A stretch of 64,000 nt of DNA, from the NCBI RefSeq assembly GCF_026153515.1, contig NZ_CP110644.1, positions 2,323,501 through 2,387,500 on the forward strand, given 5' to 3'. The position numbers were made by a program, and so were the translations under genes. Source of the DNA: Pseudomonas sp. KU26590 (lineage in GTDB: Bacteria; Pseudomonadota; Gammaproteobacteria; Pseudomonadales; Pseudomonadaceae). Of this stretch, positions 53,077 through 55,663 are shown piece after piece (position 1 is the first letter of the stretch; each line of letters opens with the position of its first letter). Below the pieces are notes generated by a model. That model was not told where the DNA came from. It made no database searches and saw only the letters and a list, made by a program, of their open reading frames with translations.

Positions 53077-54708
53077 CTAAACCCGAAACTGCCGCAACAA
53101 CCCGTTCAGCTGTTCACTCAACCCCTTGAGCTGATTGCTCGCTGCGCTGGACTGTTCCGCCGCCACCGCGGTGCTCTGGGACAGTTGCGCCGCCTGGGTG
53201 ACGTTCTGGTTGATGTCTTCCACCACGTGGGATTGCTCAAGGGTCGCGCTGGCGATGGAGGCGTTGAGGCCGTTGAGGTTGCGCAGTGCCTGGCTGATCG
53301 AGGTCAGGCTCTGGCCGGCGAGGTTGGCCTGTTCAATGGTCAGTTGCGAGGAACGACTGCTGTCGGCGATCACTTTCACCGCAGCGTCCGAATGGGCTTG
53401 CAGGCGCTCGATCATCGTCTGGATTTCTGCGGTGGATTTCTGCGTGCGCTGGGCCAGCAGGCGCACTTCGTCTGCGACCACGGCGAAGCCACGGCCCTGA
53501 TCACCGGCGCGGGCGGCTTCGATGGCGGCGTTCAGGGCGAGCAGGTTGGTCTGGTCGGCAATCGAGCTGATCACCTCCAACACACCGCCGATCTGCGTGC
53601 TTTCGCTGGCCAGCGTGCGAATCACTTCCACAGCCTGATCGATGGTCCCCGACAGGTGCCCGATCTGCTCCAGGCTGCTGTCGATGTTGGCCTGACCCTG
53701 CTGCGCCTGGGATTCGGCGTTGCGCATCTCGCTGGCGGCGTGCTCGGCGTTCTTCGCCACGTCCTGCACGCCGTAAGTGACTTCATTGACGGCGGTGGCC
53801 ACCTGTTCCATCTGCAACGACTGCTGCTGACTGCGCTCCTGGGCCTGAATGGCATTGCTGCCCAGCTCACTCGACGCCTGACCGAGACCGACCGCAGACG
53901 ACTGCAACTCACTGACCACCCGCCGAAGCTTGGCGGTGAACGCGTTGAAATGCCGGGCCAGTTGCGTGACCTCGTCGTTGCCCTCGGTTGCCAAGGTGCG
54001 GGTCAGGTCGCTTTCGCCGCTGGCAATATTGGCCATCGCCTCGACGGTGGTTTTAAGCGGGCCAGCGATGCTGCGGGCAATCAGAATCAGCACAAGCGCC
54101 ATCACCAGAATGATGCCGGCACTGATCGACAGCGCCTTGACGACTTGCTTGTAGAACTCGGCCTGCACGTCATCGATGTAAACGCCGGAGCCGATGATCC
54201 AGCCCCACGGTGCGAACAGCGAGATGTACGAAGTCTTGCCGACCGCGTCAGTGGCGCCGGGCTTGGGCCAGCGGTAGTTGACCATGCCGGCGCCTTTGGC
54301 TTTGGCCAGCGTGACCATTTCATTGAAGACCTGAAAGCCGTCCGGGTCTTTGATGGCGGAAAGGTCCTGGCCAACCAACTTGGGATTGGCCGGGTGCATG
54401 ATCATCACCGGGCGCAGGTCGTTGATCCAGAAGTAGTCGGTCTGGTTGTAGCGCAGCCCGCGAATGGCATCCATCGCCTGCTGCTGCGCCTGCTCGCGGG
54501 TCAGGGTGCCGGCGGTTTCCAGGCCATGGTAGTAATCGAGCAGGCCACTGGCGGTCTGCACCACGTGCATGGTCTTGACGGTTTTGGCTTCGTACAGATC
54601 GTCGTGGATCTGCTTGAGCATCGCCCCCGCCAGCGTAAACAGCATCACTACCGCGACGATGAGAATCAGCCACAAGCGCTTGCTGATCGAGAGATTGCGC
54701 ATATTCAT
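53077..54708 (-). CDS. Methyl-accepting chemotaxis protein with single-Cache sensor
   Basis: 543 residues from ATG 54708 (GGAG 8 bases upstream; the GTG at 54717 overlaps that site). Membrane helix 1 is ~10-30 ([20 protein letters not shown]). The periplasmic sCache_2-type domain (~35-185) has [20 protein letters not shown] and YRWPKPG, ending [15 protein letters not shown]. Then come TM2, HAMP ([20 protein letters not shown]) and the signalling hairpin, with [24 protein letters not shown] tip ([20 protein letters not shown]). It has no C-terminal CheR tether. The ligand is unknown; related receptors sense organic acids. Confidence 0.93.
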
Positions 54709-54961
54709 GATCGTCACTCCGTTTCTTTGTTCTTTTTATTGGGCCAGGCTTAGGGGTAGCGCGCCGGGCAAACCGGGTGCGCAACAGCGGATCGATGACC
54801 GTCGAACGACAGACAGAGGATGCGGTGTCATTAAGCATCTCGGCCTGACGGTTATAAACCTGAGTGTGGGCGCAAGTTACGGACACAGGTATAGCGAAAG
54901 GCTTACACGCTCTGAGGAACTTGGCTCTAGGCTGAAACACCTCGGCGCGGTACATTGGATC

Positions 54962-55077
54962 CATCAACTGCAGCAACGGACCGCTGCAGGATCAAGGATG
55001 ATCGACCGTTGCCAGGCATTGGCGGCCAACAGGAAGTTGGACGGTGTTGCACAAACCCGCTTCGGCGGGTTTTTTTA
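54962..55077 (+). ncRNA. Candidate Rsm-type (RsmX/Y/Z, CsrB-like) regulatory RNA
   Basis: A ~116-nt region bounded by a probable -10 (TACATT at 54951) and an intrinsic terminator (ACCCGC-TTCG-GCGGGT with T-run, 55055-55077). It contains three hairpins with GGA in the loop: CTGCAGC-AACGGACC-GCTGCAG (54968-54989), GATC-AAGGAT-GATC (54990-55003) and CCAAC-AGGAA-GTTGG (55026-55040). Two more GGA triplets lie outside loops. This is how Rsm RNAs bind and titrate RsmA/RsmE. CTTACA at 54902 matches one half of the GacA box TGTAAG-N6-CTTACA; the other half is poor. Length is close to RsmX. The start is estimated. Confidence 0.72.
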
Positions 55078-55264
55078 TTGCCTGCGATTTGGTGAAGGAC
55101 CTTTCGACTGCATTTATTTACCGAATCTGTACGACGTTTCGACCAAATGTTGTTTCCCAATGGAATTTCCGGCGCTCGCGCCGCTCACAGTACGGACTAC
55201 ACCCGAGTCCAGGACAGGGCCGGCCGGGCAGGCATGGGAAATAATTATTGTGGATGTGGCGCAA

Positions 55265-55663
55265 ATGGCAGCAGACGTACCAAACATGGGACTCATTCTG
55301 GTGGTTGAGGACGAGGAAATCATTCGTGAGTTCGTGTGCGAGATCCTCGAGGATGAAGGCTTTACCACCCATGCGCTGGAGACGGCAGACGAGGCGGCGA
55401 ATTACCTCGAGAGCAGCTCGGCCGACGTGGCGCTCCTTCTGACCGATATCCTCATGCCGGGCACCTTGAACGGTGCAGACCTTGCGAACCTGTCGCGCAA
55501 CAAGTATCCGCACATCCCGATTCTGATCATGTCAGGTCACGAGACACCGGAGAGCTCTGGCGTCGTACATCCGGTGGTGTTCATTCGCAAACCCTGGAGC
55601 TTCGGCCAGCTTTTACAGGGCGTGAACAGGGCCTTGGGCTACGACAAAGACGAAAGCCTGTGA
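55265..55663 (+). CDS. Single-domain response regulator
   Basis: 132 residues from ATG 55265; ATG 55286 (MGLILVVEDEEIIREFVCEI) and GTG 55250 are alternatives. A receiver domain only: acidic pocket EDEE, phospho-acceptor Asp in LLLTDILMPGTLNGADL, Ser/Thr in LIMSGHE and Lys in FIRKPWSFGQL. It has no output domain. It lies ~190 bp after the Rsm-like RNA terminator and head-on to the TetR gene; its partner kinase is not in the window. Confidence 0.85.
   Translation: MAADVPNMGLILVVEDEEIIREFVCEILEDEGFTTHALETADEAANYLESSSADVALLLTDILMPGTLNGADLANLSRNKYPHIPILIMSGHETPESSGVVHPVVFIRKPWSFGQLLQGVNRALGYDKDESL

Follow-up and report, generated by a model that had tools for sequence, protein, structure and literature searches.

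An rsmX small RNA locus with a TATRGC-type activator site in Pseudomonas sp. KU26590

Introduction

What is encoded in the intergenic stretch between a chemoreceptor gene and a response regulator gene of Pseudomonas sp. KU26590, and is there anything irregular in the way that it is controlled? An earlier note on this DNA had proposed an Rsm/CsrB-type small RNA at this place, and had taken the weak left half of its putative GacA-recognised activator site to mean that its control might depart from that of classical rsm genes. We followed up both proposals in a 64-kb window (the whole stretch of DNA that was analysed, 64,000 nucleotides of contig NZ_CP110644.1), in the remainder of the same genome, and in related loci of other Pseudomonas genomes. 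By way of background, CsrB and CsrC of enterobacteria work in the same way as rsmX, in that they sequester CsrA via GGA motifs, although they are longer RNAs that contain more GGA sites.

Results

The intergenic stretch contains a full-length rsmX RNA

We scanned the window with Rfam 15, a search of covariance models that the earlier note had named as a check. The sole listed match above its gathering score is to rsmX (RF02144); one lower-scoring match from the same clan, at the same place, is omitted from the listing. The rsmX match spans the entire model (1-114 of 114) with a score of 88.4 bits against a gathering score of 56, and its E value of 5e-15, which was computed for the 64-kb window, is far beyond chance. 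The proposal of an Rsm/CsrB-type RNA is therefore borne out, and can be narrowed specifically to rsmX, by this full-length match together with the conserved GGA loops that are described below. Weak Rfam matches at the same position to isrB, isrK, Trp_leader, istR, asX2, P9 and bZIP were rejected, all of them being below their gathering scores. The minimum-energy fold of 54963-55078 has a predicted free energy of -45.4 kcal/mol, compared with -34.4 ± 3.1 kcal/mol for 200 dinucleotide shuffles (z = -3.5), none of which was as stable.

The sequence motifs listed in the earlier note are found where it had placed them (TATAGC at 54890, CTTACA at 54902, AACGGACC at 54975, ACCCGC at 55055 and GCGGGT at 55065). 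Two of its three stems with GGA in the loop, namely a 7-bp stem with loop AACGGACC and a 5-bp stem with loop AGGAA, were recovered as described; the second stem depends upon the fold, having 5 bp and the loop AGGA in the minimum-energy structure, and 4 bp and the loop AAGGAU in the Rfam consensus. Of the five GGA triplets, two (54989 and 55039) had been considered unpaired; in the predicted fold, as in the Rfam consensus, both are on paired positions. The ACCCGC/GCGGGT terminator is present, with a T-run that ends at 55076, not at 55077 as had been read. Two elements of the fold had been overlooked, namely the helix ACCGU/ACGGU around hairpin 3 and an additional hairpin, UGCCA/UGGCG. All of these features are collected in Table 1.

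Table 1. Features of the rsmX locus in the window, and of one paralogue elsewhere in the genome
Feature	Position	Strand	Basis
Divergent chemoreceptor gene (sCache_2, HAMP, MCPsignal)	53077..54717	-	Domain matches
GacA-type upstream activating sequence TATAGC-GAAAGG-CTTACA, -73 to -56 from predicted start	54890..54907	+	Sequence and comparison; putative GacA binding
Predicted -10 TACATT, ending 6 nt before predicted start	54951..54956	+	Sequence; similar sequences upstream of other rsmX
rsmX small RNA	54963..55075	+	Rfam RF02144
Hairpin 1, 7 bp, loop AACGGACC, GGA 54978	54968..54989	+	Fold and Rfam consensus; double changes in 4/7 pairs
Hairpin 2, loop GGA 54996	54990..55003	+	Fold and Rfam consensus
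Branched stem: outer ACCGU/ACGGU enclosing UGCCA/UGGCG and hairpin 3 (CCAAC-AGGAA-GUUGG, GGA 55032)	55005..55045	+	Fold and Rfam consensus
Rho-independent terminator AAACCCGC-TTCG-GCGGGTTT with T-run	55053..55076	+	Sequence, fold
Single-domain response regulator, 137 aa	55250..55663	+	Pfam Response_reg
Group II intron and rsmX-4070	L187 4621-6651; own genome C1 about 4070620-4072650		

GGA loops and base pairing are conserved across rsmX sequences

We aligned 25 rsmX sequences: that of the window, those from 22 of the 27 syntenic loci (see below), and two paralogues from the same genome. Four loci (L083, L085, L086, L098) were left out, their rsmX being identical to that of the window over 113 bases, as was L102, which differs at four positions from the retained L101. 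In this RNA-only alignment GGA is invariant in loops 1 and 2 (25/25), and loop 3 has an invariant GG, followed by A in at least 90% of the sequences; loss of the GGA loops from orthologous regions, which the earlier note had held to be damaging to its case, is not what is observed. When the alignment included the flanks (n = 28), the GGA columns were occupied in 17 sequences for loop 1, which is apparently shifted there by gaps, in 23 at 54989, in 28 for loop 2, in 27 for loop 3, and in 28 at 55039.

For a test of covariation, the fold of the window's RNA was laid on the 25-sequence alignment with the second stem set to 4 bp, giving 34 pairs. Across these, 95.5% of the cells are paired, and in 6 of the 34 both partners vary. 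Cells with double changes number 35, as compared to 1-6 when the partners are slid by one to three columns. The covariation score was attained by none of 500 shuffles and the number of doubly changed pairs by 12 of 500. Further pair types were at least as numerous in 366 of the 500 shuffles, so this last measure is uninformative. All eight pairs of the terminator are formed in 100% of cells, and one pair in the outer helix is A-U in 13 of the sequences and G-C in the other 12. The UGCCA/UGGCG helix is the least conserved, with 78.6% of its cells paired.

TATRGC is the usual left half-site of rsmX promoters

The start of transcription is predicted to be at 54963, the first base of the Rfam match. 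Relative to this start the activator site is at the usual distance (Table 1), as had been claimed; by eye, there is no good -35 hexamer upstream of TACATT. The left half-site, which had been considered weak, recurs throughout the syntenic rsmX genes (n = 28, i.e., the window plus 27 loci): CTTACA is present in all 28, and is preceded by TATAGC in 23 and by TATGGC in 5. A wider set of 57 distinct rsmX promoters was derived from 47 of the 59 loci L024-L082, the window's own place included, by removing 3 short and 19 duplicate sequences from 79 hits; these loci are the best-scoring ones and no random sample. Here 54 have CTTACA as their right half and 3 have CCTACA; as the left half, 31 have TATAGC and 13 have TATGGC (TATRGC in 44/57), a single promoter has TGTAAG, and 12 have some other sequence. 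The site finder was scored against TGTAAG-N6-CTTACA, so it carries no bias towards TATRGC.

Within the genome of KU26590, a degenerate search that allowed up to two mismatches found the site in two places, upstream of the window's rsmX and upstream of an rsmX copy at 4492786-4492905. A backward control pattern also gave two matches, and so it is the location of the two sites, and not their count alone, that is significant. An exact TGTAAG-N5-7-CTTACA occurs just once in this genome, upstream of rsmY. For its rsmZ (L017), the best GacA-like candidate, TGTAAG-CCATTT-CTTACG, is far upstream, at -189, unlike the sites of rsmX and rsmY.

A sequence that differs by one base from the window's site, TATAGCGAAACGCTTACA, is used as the site recognised by GacA in P. 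brassicacearum, where rsmX-1 and rsmX-2 are reported to be exclusively GacA-dependent (PMC7911923). A gacA mutant of P. amygdali 1448A shows lowered expression of the rsmX1-5 RNAs (PMC7600136). Since TATRGC is common in rsmX promoters, and since a nearly identical site is published as a target of GacA, the deduction of a different control from the left half-site is unsupported.

rsmX keeps company with the chemoreceptor gene more widely than with the response regulator gene

Judged by the chemoreceptor, the best named relatives include P. graminis and P. petrae (97-98%), and KU26590 probably belongs with them. A search of a limited literature gave no paper on rsmX in P. graminis. From 80 fetched loci with an orthologous chemoreceptor gene, 30 (L083-L111 and L114) were scanned with Rfam, and in 27 of these an rsmX adjoins that gene; it was not found beside the chemoreceptor gene in L109, L110 and L114. 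At a tblastn threshold of E 1e-10, the response regulator was matched in 16 of the 27 syntenic loci (L083-L098, which are P. graminis-like) and was unmatched in the other 11 (L099-L108 and L111, mostly P. syringae/viridiflava-like), all of which keep rsmX together with its activator site. In 10 of these 11 loci, a TetR-type gene adjoins rsmX; it is unmatched in L103, where the contig begins 584 bases past rsmX. The pairing of rsmX with the chemoreceptor gene is hence wider than that with the response regulator gene. In the window the response regulator gene stands between rsmX and a TetR-type gene, and its restriction to 16 of the 27 loci suggests a lineage-specific gain or loss. Separately, in Pseudomonas sp. 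ICMP 561, we noted a match to C4 antisense RNA (RF01695, 76.3 bits; L105 8269-8352) close to the chemoreceptor locus.

The earlier note had also stated that no ORF explains the region. A mechanical ORF of 364 aa (54569-55663) is in fact open throughout it, in the regulator's frame, which makes that statement a loose one; but this ORF does not account for the conservation, because 11 of 27 syntenic loci keep rsmX without a match to the regulator.

The genome encodes further components of an Rsm system

The one-contig genome (6,179,442 bases) contains three rsmX RNAs above the cut-off, at 120.3, 90.6 and 88.4 bits, plus one rsmY (RF00195, 107.9 bits) and one rsmZ (RF00166, 131.9 bits). It encodes four CsrA-family proteins, and a UvrY/SirA/GacA-type regulator that adjoins uvrC and scores 313.5 bits with NF007018, against a cut-off of 280 (278 for a query that lacked 22 N-terminal residues). 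For strain DC3000, a shift of RsmX1 and RsmX5 by purified RsmA proteins is reported (PMC6715622). Across the genus, 178 of 298 Pseudomonas genomes drawn have an rsmX match at E 1e-8 or better, a count from which stricter filtering has removed some of the weak matches. A search of plasmids gave a single record, in which an rsmX (96.9 bits; L163 3976-4089, about 80313-80426 of NZ_CP135972.1) is borne on a Pseudomonas plasmid of 97.9 kb, typed as non-mobilizable, near curli (csg) assembly genes.

One paralogue lies next to a group II intron

The best-scoring of the three rsmX RNAs, which we term rsmX-4070 (C1 4070620-4070731, minus strand; L187 4621-4732), has no recognisable activator site, the best candidate scoring 5/12. 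Rfam places parts of a group II intron beside it: RF02005 at L187 6442-6651 (112.7 bits against 49), and RF00029 at L187 4792-4865, which at 40.9 bits is barely above its cut-off of 40. Between the two is a gene for a group II reverse transcriptase/maturase (TIGR04416, 316.6 bits against 300). Judged by the RF00029 match, the last base of the intron is at -60 from rsmX-4070. Close homologues in other genomes (L192, L193, L194, L195) have an intact TATAGC-N6-CTTACA that runs into the same CACGCG.TGGAGG stretch, which puts the intron junction inside the right half-site, such that only the last two bases of that half-site remain in rsmX-4070. With the 5' end of the intron set at L187 6651, blastn at E 1e-3 finds nothing in the flanks (~1.5 kb) of L192-L194 that matches the 900 bases past it, and so a plain insertion is not demonstrated. 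We found no report of an rsmX with a group II intron in a search of a limited literature.

It is about an even bet, in our judgement, that the rsmX genes of this genome are split in their control, with the copies in the window and at 4492786-4492905 keeping the GacA site, and rsmX-4070 uncoupled from GacA, being perhaps silent, constitutive or intron-driven.

Discussion

Family membership, the conserved structure and activator site, synteny, a GacA-type regulator, CsrA-family proteins and the other Rsm RNAs were all computed here, and we are highly confident that 54963-55075 is a standard rsmX gene, for an RNA that would be switched on by GacA and would sequester proteins of the CsrA/RsmA type. 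Its closest known counterparts are in the RF02144 family: rsmX1-5 of P. syringae pv. tomato DC3000, and rsmX-1 and rsmX-2 of P. brassicacearum NFM421. Shared with these are the full-length covariance match, the GGA hairpin loops, the terminator, a length of about 113 nt, an activator site of the TATAGC-N6-CTTACA type, and the occurrence of several paralogues per genome; we see ordinary sequence divergence and no substantive difference. The rsmY and rsmZ RNAs have the same proposed function and presumably the same control by GacA, but they belong to different families, and in this genome their sites have the TGTAAG form (exact for rsmY, a best candidate for rsmZ), unlike the window's rsmX.

We considered whether this might be a real rsmX that, since its left half-site departs from TGTAAG, is under some different control, for example by the neighbouring response regulator. 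That its left half is TATAGC, in a genome with its sole exact TGTAAG-type site at rsmY, speaks for such an arrangement, but TGTAAG is found in just 1 of 57 distinct rsmX promoters and TATRGC in 44, and the one-base-different P. brassicacearum site is published as GacA-recognised, for rsmX genes reported to depend exclusively on GacA (PMC7911923). The neighbouring regulator, moreover, is a receiver domain alone in Pfam, and at the tblastn threshold given above it goes unmatched in 11 of the 27 syntenic loci, all of which nonetheless have both rsmX and its site. Altered promoter control was consequently rejected, and we consider it very improbable.

Slighter still is the chance that there is no separate RNA here, and that the conserved stretch instead serves the response regulator gene downstream of it, as a cis-acting leader or as part of its coding sequence. 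An ORF in the regulator's frame does run through the region, which would allow for this reading; however, the RNA runs into a strong terminator, the family that it matches over its full length consists of stand-alone RNAs, and rsmX persists in the 11 syntenic loci with no match to the regulator, which led us to reject it.

For the GacA-switched rsmX, we hypothesize the following course of events. Phosphorylated GacA would bind TATAGC-GAAAGG-CTTACA, centred near -64, and this binding would give rise to a transcript of some 113 nt, closed by the terminator. With the GGA triplets displayed in its hairpin loops, this transcript may sequester CsrA/RsmA-type proteins, by which the repression of target mRNAs would be lifted. 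In this scheme transcription and its start, GacA binding, GacA dependence and protein sequestration are drawn by analogy from studied relatives (PMC7911923, PMC7600136 and PMC6715622).

The main finding adds little to an annotation: this is the rsmX locus of this genome, an ordinary member of an already described and well-studied RNA family, and the oddity claimed for it is unsupported. It does have a practical side: because the usual left half is TATRGC, anyone looking for rsmX promoters by the exact pattern TGTAAG-N6-CTTACA would overlook 56 of the 57 that we read. As for rsmX-4070, in which a group II intron truncates the GacA site, it provides a natural case in which to test whether GacA is required by such a copy.
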